Part shown: one piece after another, positions 4,968 to 54,193 of the stretch
Position numbering within the stretch: position 1 is the first letter of the stretch
Layout: each line of letters starts with the position of its first letter
IMG/VR virus record: IMGVR_UViG_3300025102_000015
Coordinates: 21,635-85,634 of that record
Strand: one strand, 5' to 3'
Length of the DNA: 64,000 bases
Source of the DNA: a virus
Position numbers and translations under genes: made by a program
Notes under the pieces: generated by a model
What the model was told of the DNA's origin: nothing
What the model saw: the letters and a program-made list of their open reading frames with translations, nothing else
Databases searched by the model: none

Positions 4968-7085
4968 GTGGCAGGACCTGATGATATAATTGCTTTAACT
5001 GATGCGACAGAGAAACTGGCTGCTATGCAGGAGTCAGAGGCTCAAGCAGCAGGTGACTATGATGCTATTGACAGCATCGGTAAAAATGTTACCAATTCAT
5101 CTTTATACGGTGTTAAAAAGGGACCAAAAGTAAAAGCTAATTTAACTTCTCCTGAAAAGTCTCGTCTTAAAAATAAGATGAGTATTGTTTTTAAACAATG
5201 GTTTCTGGAAAAGAGTAAGTATGACAAGGATGACAAGCCTGATACAGTTATAAAGAGAAAAAAAGACCAAGTTAAAAAGAGCGGTGATGATCGATTAACG
5301 GCGGAAGAAGGTGAAGAAGATGGTCAGGGTCTTCTAGATTGGATATCGGGCATGCTTGGCATACTAGGTATTGGTGGGTTTGCCGGTCGAAGAGGGTTAA
5401 TGAGGATGCTTGGTGGGTGGATATGGAAAGGTGTAAAATGGGCTGGTGGTAAAATATGGGGTGCTCTTAAAGGTGTGGGCCGAGCCGCATGGGGAGCAAT
5501 TAAAGCTGGTTTTAGAGGAGTAGGAAATTTCTTTAGTGGGTTATGGCAAGGGTTTAAAGGATCAGGGTTTTGGAAAGGATTCACCGGTGCTCTGAGCAGT
5601 GGAGTTAATGCTGCAAAAGGTATGTTAAGCTCTGCAAAAGGCGCTTTAACAAGCGCTTTATCAAGTATTGGTAATGCTACTAGGTCTGCGTTTGAAGCCG
5701 GTAAAGGCGCTTTGAAAAGTGTCGGTCAGAAAGTTGCTGAAAAAGGAGGAGGATTTGGAAATTGGCTGGGTGGTAAGCTCAAAGGGGGATTCCAAGCAGC
5801 TAAAGATTTTGGAGGGAAAGCTATACAAAAAACTGGAGCAGCACTAAAAGCAGGTAAAGATGTAGCTGTAGATCTTGGAAGTAAAGCGATCCAAAAAACC
5901 GGAACAGCACTAAAAACAGTTAAAGATGTGGCTGTAAAGGGAGTACAAGCCGGATACCAAGGTGTGAAGGCAGCGGGGGGCGCTGTTTACAATGTAGCTA
6001 AGAAAGGAGTTGCATTAGTAGGTAAGCCGTTAAAAATGGCCTGGGATGGAGCAAAAAATTATATGATTAAGGGCGGTGGTAGTAAAGCATTACAGGGTGT
6101 TTTAAAGAGAATACCTTTTATTGGTGCAGCTATTGAAGGTGCTTTTGCTGCTTATGATATTAATAAATTTTCTAAGAATCCGGAATCATCAATGGAAGAG
6201 TTAGAGCAAAATATAGGTAAGCGTGTTGCAGAAGGTTTAGGTGGTGTAGTGTTGGGTGCAGCGTTAGGAGCGGCGTTATCTGGTCCTCCACCATTTGGAT
6301 TAGGACCGGTCGGTACCTTCTTAGGGTTTATGGCCGGTGATTGGGTTGGTAGAAAAATAGGGGGAATGTTATCAGATCATTTTGGAGCTAGACCGCTAGG
6401 ACGTATGATAATGTCATTCTTCCCTGGTTTAACAGAAAATAGAACACAAGCAATTCAGGCTGCTGCAGGTGGAGATGAAGAGGCAAAGGCTAATTTGAAG
6501 AAAAAGAACCCTGAGTATCAAAAAGATCCAGAATTTAATGACTTTATTTGGAGACCTGGAGCTAAACGTCCTGTTTCATTTAGCCGGAGTGATATTGTAA
6601 TGGGAATGAAACGTGGTGGTCCTATAGGGGAAATGGTTGGAAGATCAGAAAGTATTGTTGATAAATTATTAGGCAATACCAGTAAAACTGTAAAGAGCCT
6701 ATTTGGTAAAACTCAAGACGCATTGAAGAGCTTAACGAGTCGTTCAGAACAACCAAAGCAATATACAACTGTAAATCAAATATTAAGTGATCCATTTTTA
6801 TCAGCTGAAGGCAATGAAAGTGAACAGTCTGGAAGAATAGCAAGTCTTCAATTAAAAGCTATAGGAGTATCTAATACGTACTTAGCGCAACTAGTACAAC
6901 TTACACAGGCATTAGTTAAAAAACCAACCGGGGGTGGTAGTGGTGGTAACGTAGTAAGTGTATCACCGCCTAGCAACTCTATTGCTGGGACACAAGGAGA
7001 TCCATCTGGTCCACAAATGGGTGATAGTAGAGTAGAATTTTATAATTCGCCTTATAGTATGCATACCCCAGGTACGCTTACATAA
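4968..7085 (+). CDS. Probable tape measure / baseplate hub protein (gp29-like)
   Basis: A 705-residue protein starting with GTG. An N-terminal charged part (1-120) is followed by a long Gly/Ala/Lys-rich region (about 125-400) with amphipathic repeats of the type G-x-A-I-Q-K-T-G-x-A-L-K, including two tandem 22-residue units. A hydrophobic, Gly-rich stretch follows near residues 415-475 (V-V-L-G-A-A-L-G-A-A-L, then F-L-G-F-M-A-G-D-W-V-G). This composition, one or two hydrophobic segments in a long helical protein, is typical of tape measures that fill the tail tube and may insert into the host membrane. Its position before the gp48-like tube cap matches the T4 29-48 order. T4 gp29 has 590 residues. 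Assigned by architecture and context only. Confidence 0.6.
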   Translation: MAGPDDIIALTDATEKLAAMQESEAQAAGDYDAIDSIGKNVTNSSLYGVKKGPKVKANLTSPEKSRLKNKMSIVFKQWFLEKSKYDKDDKPDTVIKRKKDQVKKSGDDRLTAEEGEEDGQGLLDWISGMLGILGIGGFAGRRGLMRMLGGWIWKGVKWAGGKIWGALKGVGRAAWGAIKAGFRGVGNFFSGLWQGFKGSGFWKGFTGALSSGVNAAKGMLSSAKGALTSALSSIGNATRSAFEAGKGALKSVGQKVAEKGGGFGNWLGGKLKGGFQAAKDFGGKAIQKTGAALKAGKDVAVDLGSKAIQKTGTALKTVKDVAVKGVQAGYQGVKAAGGAVYNVAKKGVALVGKPLKMAWDGAKNYMIKGGGSKALQGVLKRIPFIGAAIEGAFAAYDINKFSKNPESSMEELEQNIGKRVAEGLGGVVLGAALGAALSGPPPFGLGPVGTFLGFMAGDWVGRKIGGMLSDHFGARPLGRMIMSFFPGLTENRTQAIQAAAGGDEEAKANLKKKNPEYQKDPEFNDFIWRPGAKRPVSFSRSDIVMGMKRGGPIGEMVGRSESIVDKLLGNTSKTVKSLFGKTQDALKSLTSRSEQPKQYTTVNQILSDPFLSAEGNESEQSGRIASLQLKAIGVSNTYLAQLVQLTQALVKKPTGGGSGGNVVSVSPPSNSIAGTQGDPSGPQMGDSRVEFYNSPYSMHTPGTLT
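5811..5942 (+). repeat. Two tandem 66-bp repeats inside the tape measure gene
   Basis: Units 5811-5876 and 5877-5942 encode two 22-residue copies of a G-x-K-A-I-Q-K-T-G-x-A-L-K-x-x-K-D-V-A-V module. The copies have diverged at synonymous and some non-synonymous positions, so this is not a recent duplication. Confidence 0.75.
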
Positions 7086-8240: not shown

Positions 8241-8648
8241 ATGAGTTTAACAGGCACAACAGGAAAATACCAAAACGATATCGAAGCGCTTGATAGGCTT
8301 CCATTAACTCGTTACGAGAGAATATTTCGTATATACACAGAAGGAAAGAGTGATAAGCAGTTTTATTTTTATAATATTCTCAATAAGATAGAATTTCCTA
8401 ATAATATAGATCCTGAATTACTTGAAACTTATATAGTTAAATCACGTGAACCTTTAACTACTACTTCACATAATATATATGATGATATTGATAGTTGGTG
8501 GATTATATATTTACTAAACAAGCCTCTTCTTAATAACTTATTTTACGCTGAAGGAGGTATGCAGCTAAAGTATATTAAGAAAAATGAAAGGGGTTTAATC
8601 TATCAACAGATTACCGAGACAACTGCCTTTAGTAACAGACACTTCTAA
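8241..8648 (+). CDS. gp53: Baseplate wedge protein (gp53-like)
   Basis: 135 residues counted from the ATG at 8241, which lies one base after the stop of the upstream gene; an in-frame start at 8196 would overlap that gene by 44 nt and is less likely. The section around residues 75-95 (Y-D-D-I-D-S-W-W-I-I-Y-L-L-N) resembles the Y-W-V-L-L-x-x-N motif of T4 gp53 and its LysM-linked relatives, and the N-terminal region has the Y-E-R-I-F-R-I-Y pattern. It is shorter than T4 gp53 (196). Its stop overlaps the next ATG in TAATG, implying translational coupling. Confidence 0.55.
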   Translation: MSLTGTTGKYQNDIEALDRLPLTRYERIFRIYTEGKSDKQFYFYNILNKIEFPNNIDPELLETYIVKSREPLTTTSHNIYDDIDSWWIIYLLNKPLLNNLFYAEGGMQLKYIKKNERGLIYQQITETTAFSNRHF

Positions 8649-10036
8649 TGAAGCCAGGTAAAGACATCTATCCAATTAACGGTAGTGAGTTTTTCTGTAA
8701 GTTTAATCTCACCGGACCGGGTACCGGTGGTGGTCCAGCTGAAATTAACTTTACAAAATCGGCAGTTGTTACATTTGAGTTAGAAGAAAACTTTTTTGAG
8801 CCATTCGCTAGTGCAAGTGTAACCGTTAACAACCCATTTGATTTTATTGAAAACACTGTATTTACAAGAGGAGATGGTAGAGATAAATTTAAAATTACCC
8901 TCTTTAATAACTTAGATACGAGACCGAAAGATGAAATAAAATTAGAATATGACTTTGTTATAGCTAATGAAAGCAACAGTGTCTCAAAAACAGATCGATC
9001 AAATAATTTTAAAACATATACATTAATAGAAGAAAATTATTTTAAGTTAAATGAAAAAATTCCTTATGGGAAGAGGTATGGTGGTGGCGGTCGAGGAGGA
9101 CCTGCTGTTGCAATTGGTGATATAATTCAAGAAATTTTAGAAGAGGTTATTGGACCAGGTTGTATTGATGAGGAAAACTGGGAGCCAGGTGATATGGTTA
9201 TAGATAATTTTCCAGAGTATATTATACCGCCTATATCATTTAGATATTCTGATTTAATAAAGTATTTACTTAGAATATATTACTTTATTGACGGCGATTT
9301 ATCATGTCAAGGGTTTCTTACCTTTGATAGAGTAAATAAAAAATATCAATTACGACCCATAAGTAAAATATTTGGTGAAAATTCTAAGTTAACACAAGAG
9401 ACTTTTGGTGTAGGTGACTTAACTAATATGAAAAATCTTGGAGATTCTCCAGATAACCCAATTGATGAAAAGATTCCTACTAACGAATACACTAACGCGT
9501 TAAAGAGTACAAACTTTACTACACCTATGGTAACATACAGTAATGAATTTTTTACTAATTATTCTATTGCTACAACTGATAGAGAGTTAGGGATAGAAGT
9601 TAAAAAGCTAATGACAATTAAAGACGTGAAGGAAGCATGGACAAAATCATTTGTTGATGTTTTTAAGTATGTCGGTGGTAAGCCTGAACCTTTCTTACCT
9701 TTAAATCAGGCAAAAAGCGAGATATTTAAACCCTTTATTCTACCATATAAGAAAGAGCATGTTAAGCATATTGCTAAAGCTCAAATGGTATCTAACTTAA
9801 CATTTTTTAATCTTCAACTAGCTATCGATAATATTGGTGATACAGCGAGAAAGCCTGGTAAGTTTATAGATGTATTTAAAAGAAATAAAGAAGAAGAGAT
9901 TGTAGATAAAAAGTTATTAGGTAGATGGTTTGTTACTAAAGTGAGACATCTATTCAATAAGGATAAGTACTATAACGTAATATCATGTATTAAGACATGT
10001 ACGGGGCCTGGAATGAAAGTTAAAGATGTAAATTAA
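8648..10036 (+). CDS. gp27: Baseplate hub protein (gp27-like)
   Basis: 462 residues (T4 gp27: 391). The N-terminal half forms a beta-rich hub-type domain (S-A-V-V-T-F-E-L-E-E-N-F-F-E-P-F), followed by a helix-rich part with R-Y-S-D-L-I-K-Y-L-L-R-I-Y-Y. The C-terminal section contains the F-x-x-G-K-F-I-D-V-F pattern common in gp27-like hub proteins, then G-R-W-F-V-T-K-V-R-H, typical of the second tube-like barrel. It is coupled to the gp53-like gene by TAATG and abuts the next gene. The call rests on architecture and order, so moderate confidence. Confidence 0.6.
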   Translation: MKPGKDIYPINGSEFFCKFNLTGPGTGGGPAEINFTKSAVVTFELEENFFEPFASASVTVNNPFDFIENTVFTRGDGRDKFKITLFNNLDTRPKDEIKLEYDFVIANESNSVSKTDRSNNFKTYTLIEENYFKLNEKIPYGKRYGGGGRGGPAVAIGDIIQEILEEVIGPGCIDEENWEPGDMVIDNFPEYIIPPISFRYSDLIKYLLRIYYFIDGDLSCQGFLTFDRVNKKYQLRPISKIFGENSKLTQETFGVGDLTNMKNLGDSPDNPIDEKIPTNEYTNALKSTNFTTPMVTYSNEFFTNYSIATTDRELGIEVKKLMTIKDVKEAWTKSFVDVFKYVGGKPEPFLPLNQAKSEIFKPFILPYKKEHVKHIAKAQMVSNLTFFNLQLAIDNIGDTARKPGKFIDVFKRNKEEEIVDKKLLGRWFVTKVRHLFNKDKYYNVISCIKTCTGPGMKVKDVN

Positions 10037-13211: not shown

Positions 13212-13802
13212 TTATTTTAAGTCAGAAAGATACTGTTTTGTATATGTCGCAGCTTCTGGAGAAGGTGTAGCTGGCTCGCTTGGAATTACCGTATTTTGTT
13301 TCGGTAAAGATCTTTCCGTTGGAGTGAGACCATGTGGCTCAGTACCACCTCTATCAGTTCTATTTGAAATTTGCTCTTCATCCTCAACATATTCTTCTGG
13401 TTTAATGTTTACCTTATCTTTTCTTCTTATAGCATCAGGAATAGGTAAGAGATTTGGAGCATATTGTACAGCGTGTCCGAGTAGACCGGGTACTGTAACA
13501 TGGTATGAATATCTACCACCACCTTCATCTAGAGCGAGATTTAAATTTACATCTAAGGAAGACTGTTGCGAACTAGCAGGGTAACGAGTAGGTGATGTAT
13601 CTTTAATACCGGTAACTCTAATATGAAGACCGGATTCTTTCATTTTAGTTAAAAGATCTTTTGTAGCTTTTGGAAGTTCTTTATAACAATCAGTTGATTC
13701 ATAGTCATCATTAAACTCAAAAACGTCACCAACGAGGAAGCCCCCACGCTCGTATCTTCTCATATAAGATTCATGCAAGTTTACAAACTTTTTATCTGCC
13801 AT
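13212..13802 (-). CDS. Hypothetical late protein
   Basis: 196 residues counted from the ATG at 13802, which sits exactly 5 nt behind a TAAATA core; an upstream in-frame start would lie upstream of the predicted transcript. No family recognised. The N-terminal two thirds look folded (Y-M-R-R-Y-E-R-G-G-F-L-V-G-D-V-F-E-F; a beta-rich part with G-G-G-R-Y-S-Y-H-V-T-V-P-G), while the last 60 residues are Pro/Thr/Glu-rich and probably disordered. The late promoter and place among tail genes suggest a virion or assembly role. Confidence 0.65.
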   Translation of the reverse strand: MADKKFVNLHESYMRRYERGGFLVGDVFEFNDDYESTDCYKELPKATKDLLTKMKESGLHIRVTGIKDTSPTRYPASSQQSSLDVNLNLALDEGGGRYSYHVTVPGLLGHAVQYAPNLLPIPDAIRRKDKVNIKPEEYVEDEEQISNRTDRGGTEPHGLTPTERSLPKQNTVIPSEPATPSPEAATYTKQYLSDLK

Positions 13803-14667: not shown

Positions 14668-16512
14668 ATGCCAACTAACACAAACGAGACATCAAATAAG
14701 TTTTTAGATTTTAATCTTCCGCAGGACGCGTATGTTGCGTTTGATGCTGTAAGTTTAAAAGACTATATCATTAACCGGTTAGACGAGAATCAAAAATTTA
14801 CAGATCAAAACTACGAAGGTAGTAACTTAGCAGCAGTTATTGATATAATTGCTTATTCGTATCATGTTCTTCTATTCTACTTAAACAATACAGCAGCTGA
14901 AGTAAATTTTGATCAAGCTACTCTATACGAGAACATGAATAAGATTGTTAAGTTGATTGGTTATAAACCAGCTGGTAAACAAACTTCAATCGTGCCTATA
15001 AACGCCGTCGCATCTGCTTCACTACCTATAGGCAATTACACTATTCGTAAATATTCGTATTTTTTAGCTGATGGGGTACAGTATAATTTTAACAAAGATA
15101 TATCTTTTAATAAATCAACTAATGGTGTAGAGACATTACAAAGTGTAAATGATGAAACAATATTATACCAAGGTACAATAAAAGAGTATCCAGATTACAC
15201 TGCTCAAGGAGAAGAGTTTGAAATTCTACCTGTTGTGGTTGATAACATTGTTGATAGTAATAGTGATAAATTTATTGCTGATGGTACATTGAGCGTTTAT
15301 GTTAAAGAAACGAGTAACAACACATATTATGAGTATGAAGTTATAGAAAGCTTATACCTTACAAAGTCAGTTGATAGAGTTTGTGAGTTGAGATTAAACG
15401 AATACGGTCACTACGAAGTAAAATTTGGAAATGGTGTGTTTGGTAAGAAGCTTGATGAGGGAGATATAGTATCAGTAAACTATATACAATCTGATAATAC
15501 CGCTGGTGTTATTAGTAAGAATATTATCAACGGTAATAAGCTGTTTGTTTATGACTCTACAAGACAGCGTGAATTGTTTCAAGACTTATATCCAAACAAA
15601 GATGAAACTACCTTTTTAAATATTACTAATAGTCCAAAAATTACATTTAATAACCCACTCAACTCTTCTGCGCTATCTACAGAAGAAACAGTAGAGCAGA
15701 TTAGACAAAATGCTCCAAAAATGTTTTCTTCGCAACTAAGATTGGTTACGGAGGGTGATTATCAATCATTTTTACAAAAAAATCTAGCCAACATTGTCTC
15801 TAGTACAAAAGTTGTTAGTAATGATAGTTATATTAATGAATATATACAATATTTTTACGACATATGTGTCGATCCAAATAAAGTTAATAGAGTAATAATT
15901 AATCAAGTTAATTTCGCTGATTCATGTGACTTTAATAACATAAATGTTTTTGTCGTACCTAAATTTAAAATAACAGAGGATAAATCTTACCCGCCTTTTT
16001 TGAGTAACTCGTTTAAAAATTATATTGTTACTCAAACGCAAGATAGAAAAATGTTATCGAATACTGTTGTACCGCGAGATCCTATTTACATGGCTTTTGG
16101 ATTAGGTATAGGCGATGCATCAGATTTAACATTGGATATACTTGATCAAACAAAATTATATGCTGTAAGAGAGACAAATAATAAAATTAATAAGACAACT
16201 TTAAAGACAAGAATTGGTAGTTTGATTAAAAAGTTTTTTAATCCTGATGATAATGTGTTAGGTGGTAATTTAAAATTAATAAATCTTGCTAATGATATAC
16301 TTTCTTTAGAGGGAATAAAACGAATCGAAACTAGGAATGAATCAACAGGAGAAATCTTTACCGGTGGTGTTTCGTTTTTATCATTCAATCCACAGTATCC
16401 AGATAGTGACATAGAATTAGTGAATCAAGATAAGACATTACCGTTTTTTAAGTTTCCATATTTATATTCGCCACTATCTGTAGCTGATCGCATTGTTATA
16501 ACAGATGAGTAA
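14668..16512 (+). CDS. gp6: Baseplate wedge protein (gp6)
   Basis: 614 residues (T4 gp6: 660). The gp6/BaseplateJ-like family forms the inner ring of the baseplate. Recognisable are the N-terminal helix with D-A-V-S-L-K-D-Y-I-I-N-R-L, the segment Y-E-G-S-N-L-A-A-V-I-D-I-I-A-Y-S-Y-H-V near residues 51-69, the E-E-T-V-E-Q-I-R-Q-N-A-P-K-M-F helix and the T-E-G-D-Y-Q-S-F motif typical of BaseplateJ proteins. It directly follows gp25, and its last 8 nt overlap the next gene. Confidence 0.88.
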   Translation: MPTNTNETSNKFLDFNLPQDAYVAFDAVSLKDYIINRLDENQKFTDQNYEGSNLAAVIDIIAYSYHVLLFYLNNTAAEVNFDQATLYENMNKIVKLIGYKPAGKQTSIVPINAVASASLPIGNYTIRKYSYFLADGVQYNFNKDISFNKSTNGVETLQSVNDETILYQGTIKEYPDYTAQGEEFEILPVVVDNIVDSNSDKFIADGTLSVYVKETSNNTYYEYEVIESLYLTKSVDRVCELRLNEYGHYEVKFGNGVFGKKLDEGDIVSVNYIQSDNTAGVISKNIINGNKLFVYDSTRQRELFQDLYPNKDETTFLNITNSPKITFNNPLNSSALSTEETVEQIRQNAPKMFSSQLRLVTEGDYQSFLQKNLANIVSSTKVVSNDSYINEYIQYFYDICVDPNKVNRVIINQVNFADSCDFNNINVFVVPKFKITEDKSYPPFLSNSFKNYIVTQTQDRKMLSNTVVPRDPIYMAFGLGIGDASDLTLDILDQTKLYAVRETNNKINKTTLKTRIGSLIKKFFNPDDNVLGGNLKLINLANDILSLEGIKRIETRNESTGEIFTGGVSFLSFNPQYPDSDIELVNQDKTLPFFKFPYLYSPLSVADRIVITDE

Positions 16513-18802: not shown

Positions 18803-21796
18803 ATGGATACTATTGTTACAGGCTACCCTGAAGTAGATTTATCTATAACTAATCCTAATGTAAAGCGTGATGATGCATTAGATAGGTTTACTCCATTTTC
18901 TTTTGTTCAGTTTATAGAAACTGTAACTGAGCAATATAATCCGGATACACTAACTGGATTTTATAATACGTATATTAGTAGATGGAATACACAAATTGAA
19001 GGTAAAGATAGTGATAATAAAGATATAATAATTGAACGATATCGTGACTTCTTAAAAGATATTACTTTAAATTTTTCTACTAATGCAGAGCGAAGATATC
19101 TTACACAGTTAGATTTTTCAGACGCGCATGATTTAGAAGTAGCGATGTCTTTTTACAGTAAAAAGATACGAAGTATTATATCATACTACAAAAGCAAAAG
19201 ACAGAAGCTACATTACGCATCTACAAAAGCAAAAGTAAAAGGTAGTACATTAGGCGCAGAGCAGGCTGCTATAGATCTTATTTTAGAATTTTTAGAAAAT
19301 CGAAGTACAGCTGCTAAGGACTACGATATAGATAAAATTAAAGAAAAGTTATCAATATCTATGACAGAGTATTTCGATAACTTCGCACAATACTTTAATA
19401 GGGATCCTAACGCGTCATCTTATGGTGAAACTTTTAAAGGTTACGATCCTTTACAAACACCACGGGATAATATATTTTTATCAGATGATGAGTCTCTTAT
19501 ACAACAAGTTTTTGCTAATGTCGCGAGTGATTTAATTGAGCTTAAAGAAGCTCAGCAAACTTTAAATTTTAACATAAAAGAAGATTCATTATTCAATAAT
19601 AAAAGAAAGCTTACAGAAAAGTTTATGGGGGCTGACTTCTATTATATTGCAACAGATGACGATGGACATCCGGAGCTAGATGAAAACAACAATATAAAAA
19701 TGTTGTTTAAAGCTGAAAAACCATATGCTAATTTCTTAAATCAAGATTTTCCATCAACTGCGTCAGTTTTTTCTAATGATATAATTAGTAAGCGAGATCT
19801 AGGATTTTTTAGACCGCAAAATTCTGCAATTGTAGTTATCGAGGGTAAGAGATTACAATTTTTTACAAGAAAAAAATACCCACCAAATCAATTATATATT
19901 TTTCCTGATCCTAGTTTATTTACAAATACAGAAAATGTTCTTACATTTATTATTGATACATCACGCGCCATTAATAACGCAAGTAAGGGTATTGCAGTTA
20001 ATCAGCCCAACACAGATAGAGACAGTACCGCTTTTATAGGTTATAATTCTGAAATGGGGCAGGATAGAAACTTAAATACTGATCTATCTTATCTATTCGA
20101 TGAAGGTTATATTTATGATGGTAAAAAGGATCTCATCGGTAATATATTTGGGTTAGTAAAGGACTCAAATTACTATAGAAATAATGTAACACTTGAAACG
20201 CGTAAACAGGTTAAGAGTCTGTTAATGAATGGTTATCAGTTTTTTGATGATCTATACGGTGAAGGATATAAATTTTCTTATAAAACAGCTGACTCGTCTA
20301 CATTTTCTGAAACTATAAGATCCGGATTATCTACATTCACTAATGGGTTTACAGGTAGAGGGCCTGCTGACTTATTACCTGATACGCCTGGTAGCTGGAC
20401 GAGCTTCCCAACTTCTGCTTATAATATATTTTACAGATATTTTAACCCATATCAAGGGCTAAAAGAGCCATCTAATTACTTAGAAGTTGACTATAAGAGA
20501 CCGGAGGGCTTAGTCATAGATGCAGATGTAAAGGAGGGAGCATATTTTGCCTTTTCAGATACAGAAGCTCTCGTAGACCCAACAAGTGCAACTGATATAG
20601 GTGTGTCAAATGTTTCAGATTTAAGCTCCTACGCTACAAGCACTGCACAATTTTATTTTTCAGAACTAGCTGAAGCGGGTATCGGGTTGTTTAACTCAAA
20701 TCCGCCGTACCCTGCTTCGTTTCCTAATAAGACTATCTTCACAGCGTTATGTGATCCAACTGATGCTTTTACTAAAAGTCTTGTAGGTAACTTTAGTTAC
20801 AATGTACGTTTATCTGGTGGGTCTGGAAACTCAGGGAATGATGTTAAAAATTATGACGGTGGGTTGTTTACAGATAATATAATATTCAATTATTCACAAA
20901 ATAGAGAGACATTTGATTATAATACTGACGTCTTTGCAAAGACGTCTATTGCAGATGTAACATCAGCGACTTCAAGATTTTTTAATAAGAGAGAGCATTT
21001 AGGTAAAATATATGTTAAAAATATAAACAAAGCGTGGAACGCGCCAGCGGTACAAGAGCTTACAGAAACACTACCATATCTCTCCACTAAATATAACAAA
21101 GCGGTTTGTAATGAATTATCTACAGCTGTGGTTAATTTTGATATCTTCTATAATACACTTTTTATTGAGACAAGTAGTTATGTAGTTATTGAAAGAACTA
21201 ACTATGACAAAGATACGTTTGAAACACCAAACACATTTACCAATTCTTTAACAATAAATACAAACTTTTTTGATAAAGCTAGTAATAGATTAAAAGTTGA
21301 GGATAATGTTTTTTATTGTCGAATGGCGAGGCAGCAAGTAAATTATAAAGGTGATAATTTTTACCCAGAAATTTACAGATATAATTATACAAAAGATAGT
21401 AGCGAACAAATATACCCAACAGCTGGTAACTCTGTTCTTTCGTCAGCAGCATATTTTGCATTAACGGCTGATGATTCTGTATACATTGAATGTAGTCGCC
21501 CGCAACTAACCTATAGCAGTGATAATAATCAATTTAATCTCGCTGTAATCTTAAAGGATCAGAATAAAGGCCCAGTTTTATTAAATTATCTCTTTGAGTA
21601 TGTTGATGACATTAAGTTTTTAAATACAGAGGCGTATGTATGTAATAATAGTAGATTTACCTTTAACTTTACTCAATCTGCAAAAAATATACGTAATTTA
21701 AATAATATTAATTTTGTACTATCGTCTATCGTACCTACACTTACAACAACATACGTTACCCCTTCACCTTTATCCGGAGCAGCTTTAATACTATGA
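18803..21796 (+). CDS. Very large baseplate protein, possible gp7 equivalent
   Basis: 997 residues, close to the size of T4 gp7 (1032), the clamp-like wedge protein. The first 250 residues are helical and charged (S-F-Y-S-K-K-I-R-S-I-I-S-Y-Y-K-S-K-R-Q-K near 110-130); the rest is beta-rich with many aromatic residues. No motif was recognised, so the gp7 suggestion rests on size and on its place two genes after gp6. It has its own late promoter and ends in an ATGA overlap with the next gene. Confidence 0.55.
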   Translation: MDTIVTGYPEVDLSITNPNVKRDDALDRFTPFSFVQFIETVTEQYNPDTLTGFYNTYISRWNTQIEGKDSDNKDIIIERYRDFLKDITLNFSTNAERRYLTQLDFSDAHDLEVAMSFYSKKIRSIISYYKSKRQKLHYASTKAKVKGSTLGAEQAAIDLILEFLENRSTAAKDYDIDKIKEKLSISMTEYFDNFAQYFNRDPNASSYGETFKGYDPLQTPRDNIFLSDDESLIQQVFANVASDLIELKEAQQTLNFNIKEDSLFNNKRKLTEKFMGADFYYIATDDDGHPELDENNNIKMLFKAEKPYANFLNQDFPSTASVFSNDIISKRDLGFFRPQNSAIVVIEGKRLQFFTRKKYPPNQLYIFPDPSLFTNTENVLTFIIDTSRAINNASKGIAVNQPNTDRDSTAFIGYNSEMGQDRNLNTDLSYLFDEGYIYDGKKDLIGNIFGLVKDSNYYRNNVTLETRKQVKSLLMNGYQFFDDLYGEGYKFSYKTADSSTFSETIRSGLSTFTNGFTGRGPADLLPDTPGSWTSFPTSAYNIFYRYFNPYQGLKEPSNYLEVDYKRPEGLVIDADVKEGAYFAFSDTEALVDPTSATDIGVSNVSDLSSYATSTAQFYFSELAEAGIGLFNSNPPYPASFPNKTIFTALCDPTDAFTKSLVGNFSYNVRLSGGSGNSGNDVKNYDGGLFTDNIIFNYSQNRETFDYNTDVFAKTSIADVTSATSRFFNKREHLGKIYVKNINKAWNAPAVQELTETLPYLSTKYNKAVCNELSTAVVNFDIFYNTLFIETSSYVVIERTNYDKDTFETPNTFTNSLTINTNFFDKASNRLKVEDNVFYCRMARQQVNYKGDNFYPEIYRYNYTKDSSEQIYPTAGNSVLSSAAYFALTADDSVYIECSRPQLTYSSDNNQFNLAVILKDQNKGPVLLNYLFEYVDDIKFLNTEAYVCNNSRFTFNFTQSAKNIRNLNNINFVLSSIVPTLTTTYVTPSPLSGAALIL

Positions 21797-45044: not shown

Positions 45045-45878
45045 TTAAAGATCCTTTAACAAATCATCAATATCCTCTTCTACACTATCATTAGTAGCAG
45101 CTACCGGTTCCGGTTCTGCTGGTGTAGTATTAGTAGGTTCAGGGGCTGAAGTAGCAGGTACTTCTTCTTCTGTCTTACAATAATAATGCTCGTTAAGCAT
45201 CTCTTTAAGTTCATCGTAAGACTTTTGAGTAAACACTTCAGTAAGATCAAATGCACTCTCGTAGATTTCTTTCTGCTTATCATCCGATACATCAATCTTA
45301 CCTGCAGTAGTAAATCTTGATGATACATACGTCGGAAAGTCGCCTTGTTGCTCAACTTTAATCTTAAAGTTTACACCTTCACTACCTAGATCAAAGATAC
45401 GAGGACCAAACTCTTCAGCATCTTCACCTTCAATAGCTTCAGTAATAATTTTTTGAAGCTGCTTACCGTATCGAAGAATTTTTACTTTACCGTTATTATC
45501 CGGATTAGCAGGATCATCGATAACATATACGTTAACAAGCCACTTTTCCAAACGACGAATAGCTTGCATCTTTTCTTTCTCTTCTTCACTACCTGTTCTA
45601 AGAACCTTAAACCTCTCCTCAGCAATCGGATCTCTTTCACCGAAGGTTTGAGGGCTAAGCGTTTGAACATATTGTCCGGTTGCGAAAGAATTCCATCCAT
45701 GATTGTAATAATGGAAAAAAGTCTTACTAGGATCTTTTGCATAAGGCAAAAGTCTTACCGTATAAGTATTACCTACTTTAGTAGGCATAATCTCGTTAAA
45801 TGTAGCTGAACCCTTACTATCGGAGCTAGCTAACGCGTCTTTGATTGATTGAAACATTGAAGTATTAAAAGTACTCAT
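45045..45878 (-). CDS. gp32: Single-stranded DNA binding protein (gp32-like)
   Basis: Coats ssDNA in replication and recombination. 277 residues (T4: 301). The core has the gp32 pattern (T-Y-T-V-R-L-L-P-Y near 38-46, F-F-H-Y-Y-N-H-G-W-N-S-F near 54-65, F-G-E-R-D-P-I). The C-terminus is acidic and disordered, ending D-D-L-L-K-D-L, like the protein-interaction tail of T4 gp32. The His/Cys zinc site of T4 gp32 is absent: no Cys before about residue 230. A strong sigma70-like promoter lies immediately upstream, fitting high early expression. Confidence 0.85.
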   Translation of the reverse strand: MSTFNTSMFQSIKDALASSDSKGSATFNEIMPTKVGNTYTVRLLPYAKDPSKTFFHYYNHGWNSFATGQYVQTLSPQTFGERDPIAEERFKVLRTGSEEEKEKMQAIRRLEKWLVNVYVIDDPANPDNNGKVKILRYGKQLQKIITEAIEGEDAEEFGPRIFDLGSEGVNFKIKVEQQGDFPTYVSSRFTTAGKIDVSDDKQKEIYESAFDLTEVFTQKSYDELKEMLNEHYYCKTEEEVPATSAPEPTNTTPAEPEPVAATNDSVEEDIDDLLKDL

Positions 45879-48438: not shown

Positions 48439-49098
48439 TTATTGAGTTTTCCACTTCTCGAGAAACCAGTCTTCACCTTTTTGAAACTCTTCAGTAAACT
48501 CTGTAAGACCGGGGGATTTATGCGTTACGATAAAATCACCAACACCGACTCTAAATCCAGCTTTATGACATTGCATAGAATAATCTAAATCATAAAAATG
48601 CCACTTAGATGGACACGTTTCATCAAAACGTATTTTTTCAAATACCTTTCTTTTTATAACTAAAAAGACTCCGTCAATAAGAATAGCTCTATTAGGATAA
48701 AATCCAAAACCGCCCATGTGTTTTTGGCCTTCTGTACCATGAGCAACTGCACCTAATAAATTTCCACCTTCGAATCCTCCTCCGAGTAAATGCCATAACA
48801 CTGGTTTTTTAAGAGTTACTTTATTACAGCCAGCTACACCTACTATATCAAATTTTTCAAAGTTTCTCTCTATTCTTTTTTCTGAAAAAGCTTCTAAGAT
48901 TACATCATCGTGAACTAAGACTAAATTTTCAACTCTCTCCTTGATTGCAAAATCGATTGCTTTGTTATATGTTTTTTGTAACGATTCTTTATTATACTCT
49001 TTCATGAAGATATCAATTCCTTCATCTTTACAAGTATTATAAAGCATTGAATCTTCCTTCTTACCTGCTGTTGCAGAAAATATAAATGTTTTACTCAT
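48439..49098 (-). CDS. Glycosyltransferase (GT-A, family 2-like)
   Basis: 219 residues. Rossmann-like start (F-I-F-S-A-T-A-G-K-K-E-D-S), acidic motif V-L-V-H-D-D-V-I-L near 71-79 in the DxD position, later D-L-D-Y-S-M-Q-C-H-K-A-G-F-R near 181-194, all typical of single-domain GT2 enzymes. Overlaps the amidotransferase gene upstream in ATGA, so the two are one transcription and translation unit. Substrate unknown: sugar on DNA, virion or host surface. Confidence 0.7.
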   Translation of the reverse strand: MSKTFIFSATAGKKEDSMLYNTCKDEGIDIFMKEYNKESLQKTYNKAIDFAIKERVENLVLVHDDVILEAFSEKRIERNFEKFDIVGVAGCNKVTLKKPVLWHLLGGGFEGGNLLGAVAHGTEGQKHMGGFGFYPNRAILIDGVFLVIKRKVFEKIRFDETCPSKWHFYDLDYSMQCHKAGFRVGVGDFIVTHKSPGLTEFTEEFQKGEDWFLEKWKTQ

Positions 49099-49757
49099 AC
49101 AAATGCAAATGGGGATTTAACTTCAAAAGTACCGGCTTTATTCCAACGTTTTGTTTTTTTATTTAATTTCATTATAACACCTTCCGGTAAAACTTTATAA
49201 CCAGCACCAGGCATTGTAGTATAGTTACCTCTATTATTGTAATGTAATATAGATCCTACCCTAGCAATAAACACTTCATTCGTTTCACAATTAACAATAC
49301 TCAAAGCAAATGAACCCTCGAGCATTGATAATACTTGCTTTATAGTATTAATAGATGTTTTATTAACTTGAGAGTGTTTCTCAAGCAACTCAACTATAAC
49401 AGCTGTATCGACAGGATTTTCTAGAAACTCTACATGATTTTTTCTTAGCTTCTTTTCATTTGTCAAAACACCATTATGACTCACTAACCAATTCATAGTC
49501 TCAAACGGATGAGATGTATTATAGTTCCAAGTTCTTTTAACTGAAGTTGGAGCTTGTACATGACCTAAAAGATATTCTATGTCTTTTTTACCAGCGTAGT
49601 TAAATTTATCAAAATCTATATCACCTTCATATTTAGCAATAAATTGATCATCATCTGATAGACATACAACACTGCTAGCAAAAGTACCACGATCCTTATT
49701 TGCGTCATATAAGACTTCTAACATATTCCTATCGAATGATCCAAAAATTGCACACAT
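49095..49757 (-). CDS. Stand-alone class II glutamine amidotransferase
   Basis: 220 residues. Ntn-type GATase: Met-Cys start with nucleophile Cys2, R-G at 23-24, G-H-V-Q-A-P-T at 65-71, S-H-N-G at 93-96 with the oxyanion Asn95, and Asp117. These are the residues that take NH3 from glutamine in PurF, GlmS, AsnB and Gat-QueC. No synthetase or isomerase domain is attached, so ammonia must be passed to a separate partner. Candidates nearby are the coupled glycosyltransferase and the QueC-like protein about 2 kb away; in Gat-QueC proteins of archaea and some phages such a domain is fused to QueC. Confidence 0.8.
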   Translation of the reverse strand: MCAIFGSFDRNMLEVLYDANKDRGTFASSVVCLSDDDQFIAKYEGDIDFDKFNYAGKKDIEYLLGHVQAPTSVKRTWNYNTSHPFETMNWLVSHNGVLTNEKKLRKNHVEFLENPVDTAVIVELLEKHSQVNKTSINTIKQVLSMLEGSFALSIVNCETNEVFIARVGSILHYNNRGNYTTMPGAGYKVLPEGVIMKLNKKTKRWNKAGTFEVKSPFAFV

Positions 49758-49786
49758 AATTTATGTTAATATATTCTATGCAATAA

Positions 49787-50239
49787 TCAATCTTCCCAAT
49801 CGAACTTAAATCCTGGCTCCCACATATGTGAATTATCAACATATTTACTCATAGTACCTTCAGGTCCCTCAGCTCTAACTCTTTCGCAAATTTTTCTCAT
49901 TCGTAATGAATGCGCACTTGGTTCAGCGATAGATTGTCTATGCTCCTTAGGTATCCTCCAAAACAAATCAATATTACCATATCTCTTGTCTTTGGCTAGA
50001 CTATAATCCGGGTAATCGACACCATCAATAGTAAACCATTTTTTCTTTTTCTTTTTAGTTTTTTCGATTCCTAGATTCTTAAGTGTCTTTCTACCTAGAC
50101 CCTTTACCTTAAACAGATCGTCATTGTTTCTAAAAGGCCTAAAGCCTAAAACACGTTTAGCTGTGGTCCTCCCTACACCAGGTAGTTTACACAGTTCTTT
50201 TTCAGTCATTTTATTAAAATCCTTATAATTTAGCTTCAT
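49787..50239 (-). CDS. Helix-hairpin-helix DNA-binding protein
   Basis: 150 residues. Two HhH units in the first 65 residues: E-L-C-K-L-P-G-V-G-R-T-T-A-K-R-V-L, then L-F-K-V-K-G-L-G-R-K-T-L-K-N-L, followed by a stretch of lysines (K-K-K-K-K-K) and a 75-residue C-terminal part without recognised motif. Likely binds DNA backbone non-specifically. Its promoter region is shared head-to-head with the late gene at 50257. Preceded by a GGAACT box and a TATAAT, so probably non-late. Confidence 0.7.
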   Translation of the reverse strand: MKLNYKDFNKMTEKELCKLPGVGRTTAKRVLGFRPFRNNDDLFKVKGLGRKTLKNLGIEKTKKKKKKWFTIDGVDYPDYSLAKDKRYGNIDLFWRIPKEHRQSIAEPSAHSLRMRKICERVRAEGPEGTMSKYVDNSHMWEPGFKFDWED

Positions 50240-50244
50240 GGGTA

Positions 50245-50250
50245 TAAATA
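50245..50250 (+). promoter_or_regulatory. Late promoter core (full TATAAATA at 50243-50250)
   Basis: The perfect T4 late octamer, ending 6 nt before the ATG at 50257. Confidence 0.7.
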
Positions 50251-50251
50251 T

Positions 50252-50265
50252 ATTATATGAGTTCC
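50252..50265 (-). promoter_or_regulatory. GGAACT box with TATAAT before the HhH gene
   Basis: Minus strand GGAACT (50265-50260), 2 nt, TATAAT (50257-50252), 12 nt before the ATG at 50239. The box lies within the first codons of the divergent late gene, so the two transcripts overlap. Confidence 0.4.
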
Positions 50266-51642
50266 TTCGATTTTACCGATAATTTTAGCGGCTTTAATGA
50301 TTTATTCAACAGGGCAGAGTTCCTTACGGAAGCTAAAAAGTCACCTTACGCTAAATACCACCCTTCTTTTGGTGGTGTTACTAAAGATCTAAGATCTGCT
50401 GGGTTCAGTTCTGCTCCGTTGGATACAATTAACTTTATTAGAACAGCACTGTATAACTTAGAGCTTATAAGCGATGACGAGTTAGCTGCTGCTAAGAGAG
50501 GAGCTGGGTTTGCTGCCAAAAAGCAAAATCTTCTAGCTTTATTGGATGCAAAAGAGGATGTTATCGAACAAAATAAAGACGCAATTGCTAAAGAAGTTGA
50601 AGATAATCTCGCTCGTTATATTAACAGAGCAACAACTGATAGAGGTAGAGAAGAAAAATATGCAGCACAAAAAGCTGCTTTGGAATTAGCTAAAGACATT
50701 AAAGCAGGTGAAGATATGGGTGATGCTGTTGAAGGCGCTGTAGGTCAAATGGATGCTGCAGAATCTGAGTTAGCTCAAAGTTTGGAAATGTCAAAAAAAG
50801 ATCCAACAACATTTATTGAGATTAAAATTAGAGATGCTGAGCGTGTTGAAGATGTTGGTAATATTGTCTCTAAGTATGCTAATGAAGATGGGTTAGATAT
50901 TAGTGGTAATACAGTTCAGTTTTCAGTTGACCCAGATACTCCATTAGCTAATGCTGTTACAGCACACGGTATTGATAAAATTGAAGCAGCGTTAAAGAGA
51001 GACGTTGATAAGATTAGTGATAGTGTAGTTGTTGTTATGTCACCAGATGAAGATTACGAGGAGATGGGATATGGTTTTGATAGTCCGGAAGAGCCTGATG
51101 AGTATTCAATGGGTGAAGAAGGTGGTGGAATTACTGAAGTAGAAGATGCAGAAGATCTTAGCGCTAAGAAAGCTAGAGCAGGAAAAGATATCGGTAAACC
51201 AGGAAAGAATTTCTCTAAAATAGCAAAAAGCGCTGGTAAAAAGTATGGCTCAAAAGCAGCTGGAGAAAGAGTAGCTGGTGCTGTATTAGCTAAGATGAGA
51301 GGTAATTACGAGGGTGCCGAGGACCTTGATCACTTCTTAACTAAAGAGCAGCCAGAGGATTATGTTCCATCAACTGATTATGAAGACGTGTTAGATGATC
51401 TTGTTAACAAGGATAAAGAAAAGCATGCTATGAAGAAGCTTAGCAATGAAGATGAAGAAGATGCTATAGTAATGCAACCAATGCTTGAGTCACATAAGAC
51501 AGATACATCTGCATATCTTACAGAGCAATCAGCTTCAGATAAACGTAATAAGAAAACGGAGATTGAACCTCAATCCTTTAAGGAAAAATACAAGCCAAAA
51601 ACATCTTGGCAGTTAGAAGAGCTTAGACGCTACGGTCTCTAA
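50257..51642 (+). CDS. Acidic virion or prohead-associated protein, unknown
   Basis: 461 residues, late promoter 6 nt before the ATG. Helical and acidic; a basic segment at about 312-350 (K-F/A-K-I-A-K-S-A-G-K-K-Y-G-S-K-A-A-G-E-R-V-A-G-A-V-L-A-K type, broken here by N-F-S) resembles short capsid/prohead modules seen in phage structural proteins. The C-terminal 100 residues are charged and disordered. No clear family. It is a lone late plus-strand gene within the early minus-strand block and converges on queC with a 4-nt overlap. Confidence 0.5.
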   Translation: MSSFDFTDNFSGFNDLFNRAEFLTEAKKSPYAKYHPSFGGVTKDLRSAGFSSAPLDTINFIRTALYNLELISDDELAAAKRGAGFAAKKQNLLALLDAKEDVIEQNKDAIAKEVEDNLARYINRATTDRGREEKYAAQKAALELAKDIKAGEDMGDAVEGAVGQMDAAESELAQSLEMSKKDPTTFIEIKIRDAERVEDVGNIVSKYANEDGLDISGNTVQFSVDPDTPLANAVTAHGIDKIEAALKRDVDKISDSVVVVMSPDEDYEEMGYGFDSPEEPDEYSMGEEGGGITEVEDAEDLSAKKARAGKDIGKPGKNFSKIAKSAGKKYGSKAAGERVAGAVLAKMRGNYEGAEDLDHFLTKEQPEDYVPSTDYEDVLDDLVNKDKEKHAMKKLSNEDEEDAIVMQPMLESHKTDTSAYLTEQSASDKRNKKTEIEPQSFKEKYKPKTSWQLEELRRYGL

Positions 51643-52397
51643 GCACACTCTTTGCAATTATTTTCTTCGTACAGTTTATCCAACTTTTCTTGTTGGACAT
51701 AGGCGATAGGATCTTTTAAACCGGCATCCACAAACCCTTTTACTCTCATACTACTAGACGGCGTAGTAGCATCTGCTAGTTTATCTTTTCTATCTGAATA
51801 ACAAGTCCAAGTATCTTTATACTTAACACCAAGTCTAGCCCCCTCTTTAATAATTTCAGCTTTAGACATTTCAAGCAACGGAGCTTCAATTACAACTCTA
51901 TTTTCTCTATTAAGATCTGTAACGTTATTAACCACATCTACAAACTCTTCACTACCATCCCAGTACCCAGCTAAGGAATCTACCTGAGCCGCACCATACC
52001 AAACAGTATCAGCACCAACACTTTCAGCATACGAAGAGCAGATAGATAAAAACATTAAGTTTCGAAACGGTACATATGATACAGGTTGTGCATCACCAGC
52101 CATTTCACTAATATTGGGATTATCAATATCTTCATTAGTTAAAGATGAAGTAGGAGCAATATCTCTAATGTATTTTACATCTAAGACCTTATTAGTTACC
52201 TCTAAATTAAACCAACCGGAAAACTGCTCGTTAAAATTATTAATTTGTTTATTAACACACGTTAATTCACGTTTATGTCGCTGACCATAATCAAAAGTTA
52301 GAGTATGTATTTCTTCATAACCTCTATCTTGTGCCATATACAACAGCACAGACGAGTCCATTCCACCGCTAAGAGTTAATACTAGTTTACGTTTCAT
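51639..52397 (-). CDS. queC: QueC-like 7-cyano-7-deazaguanine synthase with degenerate zinc site
   Basis: 252 residues. QueC converts 7-carboxy-7-deazaguanine to preQ0 using ATP and ammonia. The PP-loop S-G-G-M-D-S is at 10-15, with T-F-D-Y-G-Q-R-H at 34-41, P-F-R-N at 110-113 and D-T-W-T-C-Y at 195-200. In normal QueC, C-Y is followed by C-G-x-C-x-x-C; here those three Cys positions read Asp, Thr and Ser (about residues 209-215), leaving only Cys199, while G-F-x-x-A-G-x-x-D-P after it is intact. Two extra cysteines are at the extreme C-terminus (248 and 251). Overlaps the TylF-like gene by 11 nt. Identity is firm; whether it makes preQ0 or a related amide/amidine product is open. Confidence 0.85.
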   Translation of the reverse strand: MKRKLVLTLSGGMDSSVLLYMAQDRGYEEIHTLTFDYGQRHKRELTCVNKQINNFNEQFSGWFNLEVTNKVLDVKYIRDIAPTSSLTNEDIDNPNISEMAGDAQPVSYVPFRNLMFLSICSSYAESVGADTVWYGAAQVDSLAGYWDGSEEFVDVVNNVTDLNRENRVVIEAPLLEMSKAEIIKEGARLGVKYKDTWTCYSDRKDKLADATTPSSSMRVKGFVDAGLKDPIAYVQQEKLDKLYEENNCKECA

Positions 52398-53073
52398 TAA
52401 TTATAAAAGCTTTACAGAAGGTACCGTATCTTAAAAATTCTTCTGTTTTAATATTTTTATTTTCTTCCAAAAATTCTTTAAATGCTAATCGTTCACCTTT
52501 ATTCCTATCACCTTTAAAGTGAAACCAATCATCAAATAAAATTATACTACCTGGAACTAGTTTATCTCTAATTAAATTTAGTACAGTCTTTGTGCTAGTA
52601 TATAAATCACAATCTATATGTACAATAGCAATTTTCGAAATATCATTAATTTCTAGATCTTCAAAATAGCCTGGTCTAATAATAGGTGTTTGTAAATTAT
52701 AATGTGAAAAGAAGTTAACTACCTTCTCAGGCGTCACATCTTCACCATAACCAATTAAAGGGTGAAAAGAATGATTAACTTTAAAGACGCCTTTTTCCCA
52801 TCTTGGATGCCCTTCTGAATCTTGTAACCCTTCAAAACTATCAAACCCATAAATTTTTCTATTTATGCTACTTTTTCTATTATGTTGATTTTCGTCTTGA
52901 AAGTATTGTTGATGAGAGTATGCTAGACTAGCTAAGCTCCTTCCCGTGTAACATCCAAACTCACATATATCACCTGGTACGAGTTCGTAGTTAATAAACC
53001 TCACAGCTTTTTTAAAAGCTTCATGACGAATATCACTTAATATCTGTTCGCGAAATTTATGACCAATTTTCAT
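52387..53073 (-). CDS. TylF-like SAM-dependent methyltransferase
   Basis: 228 residues from the ATG at 53073, which lies 5 nt behind TAAATA; an upstream in-frame GTG at 53088 would lie before the motif. Class I methyltransferase core: C-E-F-G-C-Y-T-G-R-S-L near 33-43, Y-G-F-D-S-F-E-G-L near 71-79, H-I-D-C-D-L-Y-T-S-T near 147-156, and I-I-L-F-D-D-W near 171-177, the signature of the macrocin O-methyltransferase (TylF) family that methylates sugars, metal-dependent. With three glycosyltransferases in the window, a methylated glycan on the phage or host is the natural suggestion. Forms an operon with queC. Confidence 0.8.
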   Translation of the reverse strand: MKIGHKFREQILSDIRHEAFKKAVRFINYELVPGDICEFGCYTGRSLASLAYSHQQYFQDENQHNRKSSINRKIYGFDSFEGLQDSEGHPRWEKGVFKVNHSFHPLIGYGEDVTPEKVVNFFSHYNLQTPIIRPGYFEDLEINDISKIAIVHIDCDLYTSTKTVLNLIRDKLVPGSIILFDDWFHFKGDRNKGERLAFKEFLEENKNIKTEEFLRYGTFCKAFIINET

Positions 53074-53077
53074 TATG

Positions 53078-54193
53078 TTATTTATCACTGTCTAATAAAT
53101 CTTCTAATCCAATCTCATCAGGAGCTTCTTCCCCTTCTTTATTACTATATGACCACTCATCTTTAATTCTTTCTTCTAACTTAGGTAAAATAGTTTCCTC
53201 CCAAAGCTTTTCATCTTTACGCCAATTTTTATAATATCCTAACTTTTTACCATCTTCAAGTTGATAGGTAGCTCCAGTTTGTATCACTGCTCCTACTCCA
53301 ACTGCTAAGTCCACTAGTCCGTAGTATCTATCTAAACCAGTAGAGAAAGAAAGATACATTTCACCCTCTAGGTATTGTTTGATAAATCTATTTTTACGAG
53401 TTAAAGCTCTAATAATAATACCAGAGTATTTTTTCTGACCAACAGCTAACTCACCATCAACAGTTTTACCACCATCCGATTTCATAGGCTTACGCGCTAA
53501 TTGTACAGTTACTGATGGTAGATATACACATGATTTACCACCCGGCATATTTTTTTCAATAGAAGGAAACAATGCAGTAGGGTCGTCGTATACATGGTTA
53601 GTACAGAGGATTGTAGTCTGAGTAATAGCACCTAAGTTGGTACAAGTTTGCATTAAGGTTTTCATAGCTCGAGCTTTAGTACCCATATCAGATGAAGTAC
53701 TATCTTTACTCATACGACTGAGTTCAAGTTCAGATTGTAAATTAGCAAGAGAATCAATAGCTACAATAAACTTACCTTCGAGTCCCTTCTCTTTAACAGA
53801 AGTAAGAAATTTATATAGAGCGTTTCTTGCTTGTTCAATACTAGTAGTAGGTACGTATTTTACTTTACTAATATCTAAACCGAGTCTCTCTGCACCATCT
53901 GGATCAATAGCATTTTCAGTATCAAAAATAACAGGAGTAAGACCTTCTTGCTGTGCTTTAGCTAGAATTTTTTGAACAAACAATGACTTACCGGTCATAG
54001 ATTCACCAGCGAGCATAGTTACTCTACCTTTAGGAATTCCACCATTAATTGAACCAGAAATAATCGCATTTAACACATATGATCCAGTATCAATCCATTC
54101 TCCAACATGACTAAGAGTATTATTATCGAGGTAGGTAGCAAAAGGGTTTACTTTATCTATAGCGTCTAATGCGCTAGCAATATCTTTATCCAT
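53078..54193 (-). CDS. uvsX: RecA-like recombinase (UvsX)
   Basis: Strand-exchange protein for recombination-dependent replication and repair. 371 residues (T4 UvsX: 391). Walker A G-E-S-M-T-G-K-S at 63-70, preceded by G-G-I-P-K-G-R-V; V-I-F-D-T-E-N-A near 93-100; Walker B F-I-V-A-I-D-S-L-A-N-L; and the L-x-R-K-N-R-F region. The acidic C-terminus is typical. A sigma70-like promoter sits 7 nt before the ATG. Confidence 0.93.
   Translation of the reverse strand: MDKDIASALDAIDKVNPFATYLDNNTLSHVGEWIDTGSYVLNAIISGSINGGIPKGRVTMLAGESMTGKSLFVQKILAKAQQEGLTPVIFDTENAIDPDGAERLGLDISKVKYVPTTSIEQARNALYKFLTSVKEKGLEGKFIVAIDSLANLQSELELSRMSKDSTSSDMGTKARAMKTLMQTCTNLGAITQTTILCTNHVYDDPTALFPSIEKNMPGGKSCVYLPSVTVQLARKPMKSDGGKTVDGELAVGQKKYSGIIIRALTRKNRFIKQYLEGEMYLSFSTGLDRYYGLVDLAVGVGAVIQTGATYQLEDGKKLGYYKNWRKDEKLWEETILPKLEERIKDEWSYSNKEGEEAPDEIGLEDLLDSDK
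53079..53084 (-). promoter_or_regulatory. Late promoter core (TAAATA) inside the end of uvsX
   Basis: GATAAATA on the minus strand, within the last codons of uvsX, ending 5 nt before the ATG at 53073. It would give the methyltransferase-queC operon late expression separate from uvsX. Confidence 0.6.

Follow-up and report, generated by a model that had tools for sequence, protein, structure and literature searches.

In the fused Gat-QueC proteins of phage 9g and of archaea, a class II glutaminase and a QueC domain form a single protein. A PP-loop synthetase with a separately encoded glutaminase is represented by the two-gene GMP synthetase of archaea (PMC13329287, available part), which acts on another substrate and whose glutaminase belongs to PF00117 and not to the N-terminal nucleophile (Ntn) class. 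Here we describe a pair of genes, queC and gat, encoding a QueC-like protein and a free class II (Ntn) glutamine amidotransferase in a 64.0-kb stretch of DNA (the window) from the 85.6-kb IMG/VR phage record IMGVR_UViG_3300025102_000015 (positions 21,635 to 85,634). The two proteins probably constitute a two-subunit, glutamine-dependent preQ0 synthase leading to preQ1. Neither a split Gat nor a zinc-less QueC was met in the open-access literature searched.

The window derives from a marine virus of bacteria with T4-like gene content, comprising gp32, recognized by Pfam, and UvsX, a DnaB-type gp41 and a DNA polymerase, named by eye. Both genes lie on the minus strand between the genes for UvsX and gp41, with gat (49095–49757, 220 aa) located 1.9 kb beyond queC (51639–52397, 252 aa). 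The first-pass annotation had placed and named them in the same way, and the family matches given below bear out both names.

Linkage of queC and gat

The QueC-like protein matches PF06508 (8.7e-54, 182.6 bits vs. a cut-off of 22) and passes the NCBIfam equivalog TIGR00364 (158 bits vs. a cut-off of 150.3), while falling short of a second QueC equivalog, PRK11106 (110.9 vs. 378). Its AlphaFold model, built from a 53-sequence alignment, has a mean predicted local distance difference test score (pLDDT) of 90, and its nearest structures in the PDB are those of QueC (3bl5, 2pg3). The next solved structure to the model is Cap9 (9nto), which would be consistent with a protein-deazaguanylating enzyme like Cap9 or QatC. 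Such a function is most improbable, since genes of the 7-carboxy-7-deazaguanine (CDG) pathway and QueF are present in the same or related phages, and the window protein keeps QueC motifs described as absent from QatC in the available part of PMC13329287.

Gat, a free class II glutaminase, matches PF13522 (7.8e-11), and its AlphaFold model (pLDDT 93) is closest to GFAT/GlmS and PurF in the PDB. The catalytic set, which we take to comprise the N-terminal Cys, RG, HNG and the Asp of the glutamine site, is intact: the putative nucleophile Cys2 (49752–49754), R23 G24, H94 N95 G96 and D117 are invariant in an alignment of 48 Gat rows. The ratio of nonsynonymous to synonymous substitution (dN/dS) of Gat against its closest copy is 0.08–0.24 in eight pairs, one further pair being saturated.

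Linkage was counted in 78 loci fetched by QueC and in another 71 that were fetched by Gat, provided that the side of the partner offered 4 kb of DNA or more. Gat is encoded downstream in 56 of the 57 QueC-fetched loci with such room (46 distinct queC DNAs), and the sole exception, L009, lies on a contig joining two phage fragments. Reciprocally, QueC is encoded upstream in all 28 Gat-fetched loci with 4 kb there, or in 9/9 if only DNA new to the QueC-fetched set is counted. The two genes thus behave as a pair, which makes glutamine-derived ammonia for QueC plausible. The passage of ammonia from the free amidotransferase, already put forward in the first-pass annotation, gains further from three bacterial operons and other phages in which the genes are adjacent.

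In the proposed reaction, the Ntn glutaminase would free ammonia from glutamine by means of Cys2, and QueC, in contact with it, would activate CDG with ATP at the PP-loop and take up the transferred ammonia, forming an amide, 7-amido-7-deazaguanine (ADG). Dehydration of ADG with a second ATP would then give preQ0 as the product. The substrate would come from FolE or FolE2, QueD and QueE of the same or related phages, while QueF, encoded in relatives, would convert preQ0 to preQ1 and so set its fate. The gene after queC, hypothetical in most phage records that have it, would thereby gain a likely role, and some phages and a few bacteria would make preQ0 from glutamine via a two-subunit enzyme, not from free ammonia.

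In the window, gat overlaps by 4 bases a glycosyltransferase-like gene (PF13712, 48439–49098, minus strand), and in 51 of the 61 loci having it the glycosyltransferase gene comes immediately after gat. Gat might accordingly serve this glycosyltransferase, giving an amidated sugar, with QueC as a separate gene. This is very unlikely, because every Gat with 4 kb of upstream room has QueC, and 12 loci with queC and gat show no glycosyltransferase match; two of them lack room, and the ten roomy ones include other phage types. The glycosyltransferase is therefore probably not an obligate partner. The co-occurrence of the genes in relatives, proposed earlier as a check, comes out in favor of QueC, which the amidotransferase follows also where no glycosyltransferase is detected, with the reservation that in five of these loci (L061, L064, L066–L068) anonymous open reading frames of 356–373 aa stand near.

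The split pair also occurs in independent contexts in KVP40, Vibrio 2.275.O, pf16, 6E35.1a, and nt-1. In KVP40, nt-1, and 6E35.1a, the last part of queC is overlapped by the gene of a class II Gat that is listed as a hypothetical protein, and pf16 and Vibrio 2.275.O are alike; QueF is present in KVP40 and 6E35.1a. A Gat of the KVP40 type was found in 51 phage records, some of them being two records of one phage: 40 overlap a feature named QueC or ExsB, six more are adjacent by position, and five were left unchecked. Unlike the window, the KVP40, nt-1, and 6E35.1a loci have a QueC with a retained zinc site and the motif YWDC, overlapping genes, and a DpdA2-type gene alongside.

Cellular counterparts are encoded by Chloroflexota metagenome-assembled genomes, where the split QueC and Gat lie within a preQ0/preQ1 operon, arranged as queF-queC-gat-queD-queE in two of them (L221 and L226) and as queC-gat-queD-queE in a third (L223), in which no queF was seen. 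These QueC proteins differ from that of the window in keeping the zinc site and carrying YWDT. A tree was built from 73 QueC rows, after omission of rows shorter than about 215 aa and of 21 near-copies or truncated rows. The branch of the window QueC (100/97) also holds the KVP40-type and Chloroflexota proteins, in a tree with nine open forks and several joins flagged for long branches.

Loss of the zinc site in QueC

Compared with canonical QueC (3bl5, 2pg3), the window protein retains the fold, the PP-loop SGGxDS (SGGMDS, residues 10–15, 52353–52370; all QueC motifs are on the minus strand), YxQxHxxE, VPxRN, the conserved Lys, the first zinc Cys and the Tyr after it, with motifs defined as in the available part of PMC13329287. 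S10, G11, G12, D14, and S15 are invariant in the 53-row QueC alignment, as is Cys199 (51801–51803, in TWTCY), the sole retained zinc Cys. The differences from canonical QueC comprise the zinc site itself, the YPDC motif, a Cys-bearing C-terminal tail and the dedicated glutaminase gene. Only one of the four Cys of C(x)8CxxCxxC is left, and in place of CGxCxxC stands the loop LADATTPSSS (residues 207–216, 51750–51779). The intact PP-loop, the D-A-T-T-P-S-S reading of this loop and the new C-terminal cysteines (C248-x-x-C251, 51645–51656) had been recognized in the first-pass annotation. Beyond that, canonical YPDC (PMC13329287, available part) is replaced by YWDG (residues 145–148, 51954–51965), in which Tyr and Asp are retained and the Cys is gone.

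Of the complete and mutually distinct QueC rows, 69 with that of the window, the zinc site is missing from 58 and present in 11. Cys199 has a majority fraction of 1.0 in the zinc-less rows, 56 of which have a Cys within the last 30 residues; four of the 11 zinc-bearing rows have one there too, and in these it lies in the zinc motif. The replacement loop is conserved, with a mean majority fraction of 0.87 vs. 0.78 for the whole protein. On the tree the zinc-less state corresponds to one change (support 99/96), and dN/dS of QueC against its closest copy is 0.02–0.15 in nine pairs. As the loss is common to these 58 rows, has one origin on the tree and is accompanied by purifying selection, sequence comparison indicates a single-origin, selectively maintained form of QueC rather than decay. 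In this marine clade, the zinc site would have disappeared a single time, giving way to a conserved Asp/Ser/Thr loop and, in nearly all members, a Cys-bearing C-terminal tail.

The closest zinc-bearing relatives (L069–L072, L074, and L076) already carry YWDG, so that this change preceded zinc loss. The loss also appears to be later than, and separate from, the pairing of QueC with Gat. A canonical second QueC compensating for the zinc-less one was rejected, since none was found across the whole of G003 and G001, two relatives read whole. A single-origin loss of the family-defining zinc site in an otherwise catalytically intact QueC provides a natural test of the purpose of zinc.

Cys199 and the C-terminal CxxC could together form a new metal site, which would be compatible with a preQ0 synthase. 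Such a rebuilt site is possible, if doubtful: Cys199 is present in all zinc-less rows, a C-terminal Cys in 56/58, and the CxxC in the close relatives of the window QueC, whereas a single tail Cys prevails in relatives at about 72% identity or less, and L144/L145 have none.

Another consequence of the loss could be that QueC halts after its first step, so that the pair would act as an amide synthase yielding ADG instead of preQ0. Both the zinc site and the Cys of YPDC are lost, as would be expected in this case; QueC proceeds via an ADG intermediate (PMC13329287, available part), and phage MED16 is reported to carry dADG. An amide synthase is nevertheless improbable, because the QueF of the zinc-less relatives G003 and G001 would have no nitrile to reduce.

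Pathway genes and the fate of preQ0

The first-pass annotation reported no preQ0-pathway gene, which holds within the window and is misleading for the phage. A second record, G013, is 99.98–100% identical to the window in blocks of 14.6–20.8 kb and thus represents practically the same phage, to which the FolE2, QueD and QueE encoded in G013 about 24 kb from QueC therefore belong. The window's record ends before these genes, and a reading without a pathway was rejected as an effect of that end. In having FolE2, QueD and QueE the phage resembles systems with canonical QueC. QueD was found in nine of 14 records; six of the nine have FolE and three (G001, G002, and G013) have FolE2 instead (PF02649, about 2e-72 each), and QueE was found in eight. 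A bimodular QueF is encoded in G003 and G001 (PF14819, 8e-34 and 1.4e-34). The FolE2 (GCYH-IB) genes in FolE's place, at 4809–5858 of L183 (G013), 6600–7646 of L180 and 3499–4578 of L181, represent a one-for-one swap within the phage group.

These genes bear on the earlier view of the pair as a split descendant of an archaeosine-making Gat-QueC, amidating preQ0 to the archaeosine base (G+) like the fused 9g protein. Both halves are recognizably related to the fused form: Gat and QueC match both halves of phrog_10428, the 9g Gat-QueC family (1.7e-7 and 1.9e-17), and nt-1, whose Gat and QueC are likewise separate, contains dG+ at a trace level of about 0.02% of G (PMC6884629, available part). 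A split archaeosine synthase is still unlikely. The window differs from the fused proteins in having two open reading frames about 1.9 kb apart and a QueC of another branch, the 9g/Xhv proteins branching apart (100/100) in a comparison that includes two fused sequences, both long, and no archaeal one. Alignment with the fused form, suggested earlier as a way to see whether the same Cys are lost, gave a negative result, as 9g Gat-QueC keeps CGTCGPC where the window QueC has lost the zinc site. QueF accompanies the pair in two relatives and in two bacterial operons, and Chloroflexota are not known to make archaeosine. The gene order in 6E35.1a is queD-folE-TGT-like-queF-queC-gat (TGT, tRNA-guanine transglycosylase), and for "6E351A," taken here as the same phage, the available part of PMC12028318 reports that 15% of dG is modified and that the mass fits dPreQ1. 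QueF in two relatives, dPreQ1 in a Vibrio phage with queF-queC-gat, and the separate branch of the fused proteins together point to preQ0/preQ1 and not to archaeosine.

Several observations weigh against a glutamine-dependent preQ0 synthase leading to preQ1. QueF is absent from the contigs of the window and of G013, both of which are partial, and the linkage counts come mostly from one syntenic phage clade. No Gat is detectable in three of the six Chloroflexota genomes with this QueC type, and in a survey of 301 Chloroflexota genomes QueC was matched in 72 but Gat, apart from one weak match, only in the query genome itself; Gat is thus rare in bacteria and not essential for that QueC type. The join of the KVP40-type with the Chloroflexota QueC (96/83) was flagged as a possible long-branch effect. 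Phage nt-1 has Gat, lacks an annotated QueF in the 15.4 kb covered, and has only about 0.1% dPreQ0. The available part of PMC6884629 describes nt-1 DNA as carrying mostly dPreQ0, at this low level, together with trace amounts of dADG and dG+, discusses these modifications in terms of ArcS, and contains no mention of a free Gat. Finally, E. coli QueC became inactive when Tyr189 in its zinc region was changed to Ala (Y189A; PMC13329287, available part); the window protein keeps the equivalent Tyr but not the zinc Cys, so that its preQ0 activity may have been lost.

Zinc loss in QueC has parallels elsewhere in the pathway. In QueD from all eight stretches of close relatives, Phe and Tyr replace two of the three canonical His, which we take to be zinc ligands. 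FolE2 is a zinc-independent GTP cyclohydrolase (PMC7873864, available part). Zinc-less QueC, altered QueD and, in the window's phage and two relatives, FolE2 suggest zinc sparing. It is tentatively conceivable that open-water phages have a zinc-sparing, glutamine-fed preQ0/preQ1 pathway whose base is put into DNA by an unrecognized enzyme, perhaps at the nucleotide level with the AAA_28 kinase-like gene. A coherent zinc-free pathway was rejected as a main claim: FolE with apparent Cys/His metal ligands occurs in five zinc-less relatives; the Phe/Tyr change in QueD is also found beside zinc-bearing QueC (phiSM, L149, L150, and L225); L053, L054, and L078 combine zinc-less QueC with canonical QueD; and the window has a gene, judged primase-like by eye, whose Cys-rich start is retained.

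The altered QueD reads AFR..HGY instead of A(A)H..HGH in L175 and L177–L183, as well as in Cellulophaga phage phiSM, L149, L150, and L225. The AAA_28 kinase-like gene, possibly a nucleotide kinase, is located at or near QueE (PhoH in L178) in eight marine stretches, for instance at 13651–14409 of L177 and 9606–10364 of L183. In QueE of L175 (11601–12389), inserted residues separate the second cluster Cys from the third (CNLTC...GC).

On the model of Vibrio phage 6E35.1a, the base could be destined for DNA, tRNA being also possible. The genome search recommended in the first-pass annotation brought to light FolE2, QueD and QueE in G013 and so far no DpdA-like transglycosylase, which leaves a DNA destination a possibility only. 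PF01702 and phrog_887 had no match over the 14 records, which may be fragments, and phrog_7068 matched no more than a scrap of 45 residues, in G000 and G007. In G000 this scrap (7e-5) and a match to Finch DpdA (E 0.0071) in the same frame lie opposite a longer open reading frame of 279 aa, and were taken as chance. Five DpdA and two DpdA2 sequences, together with profiles built for five DpdA and four DpdA2, gave no credible match in six frames of the complete G003 and G001, of the window and of parts of other records; the best DpdA-profile match (L178 9488–10213, E 0.0038) is PhoH. Two long relatives (197 and 171 kb) are thus without detected DpdA or DpdA2, and a DSG-motif scan of the open reading frames of G003 and G001 gave no convincing candidate. 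Modified DNA without a viral DpdA is described for HVTV-1 in the available part of PMC6884629. tRNA prediction in the window, L002, G003, and G001 gave none with a GUN anticodon. Since two long relatives have the pathway and no detected transglycosylase of a known type, one can search them directly for a new insertion enzyme, or for a use other than in DNA.

Neighboring genes and further observations

Two genes separate queC and gat in the window. A 461-aa gene without a Pfam match (50257–51642, plus strand) occupies this place also in close relatives, and a helix-hairpin-helix protein (PF12836, 4e-10; 49787–50239, minus strand), missing from some relatives, is probably not part of the enzyme. 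In L072, L073, and L080, which lack the 461-aa gene, queC and gat adjoin with a gap of 2–8 bases, so that the intervening genes of the window look like later insertions. On the other side, a methyltransferase gene of the TylF type (52387–53088) overlaps the start of queC; it was rejected as a pathway member, being present in 5/91 loci only.

In L012, L016, L018, and L028, Gat is 57–62% identical to that of the window and QueC 86–92%; a divergent Gat beside a similar QueC suggests recombination between the two genes. Contig 3300030107_007843 (L009/L017) carries two different uvsX-queC copies, as if fragments of two phages had been fused by the assembler. The gp32-like single-stranded DNA-binding protein of the window (45045–45878) has a single Cys (position 234) and therefore no T4-type zinc finger.

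At 6690–10013 of L002, the phage's own record contains nucleotide-sugar-type genes, named by eye, and a gene of the IMP dehydrogenase/GMP-reductase family (PF00478, 2.5e-73). In two related phage records ARAGORN reports tmRNA genes with tag peptides, at 15777–16193 of L199 (G003) and 9252–9661 of L216 (G001). Beside QueD and QueE in L177 (598–13654) and L175 (12391–18530) lies, as judged by eye, a long run of glycosyltransferase, methyltransferase, aminotransferase and radical-SAM genes, which in L177 includes an asparagine-synthetase-like gene (8500–9813).

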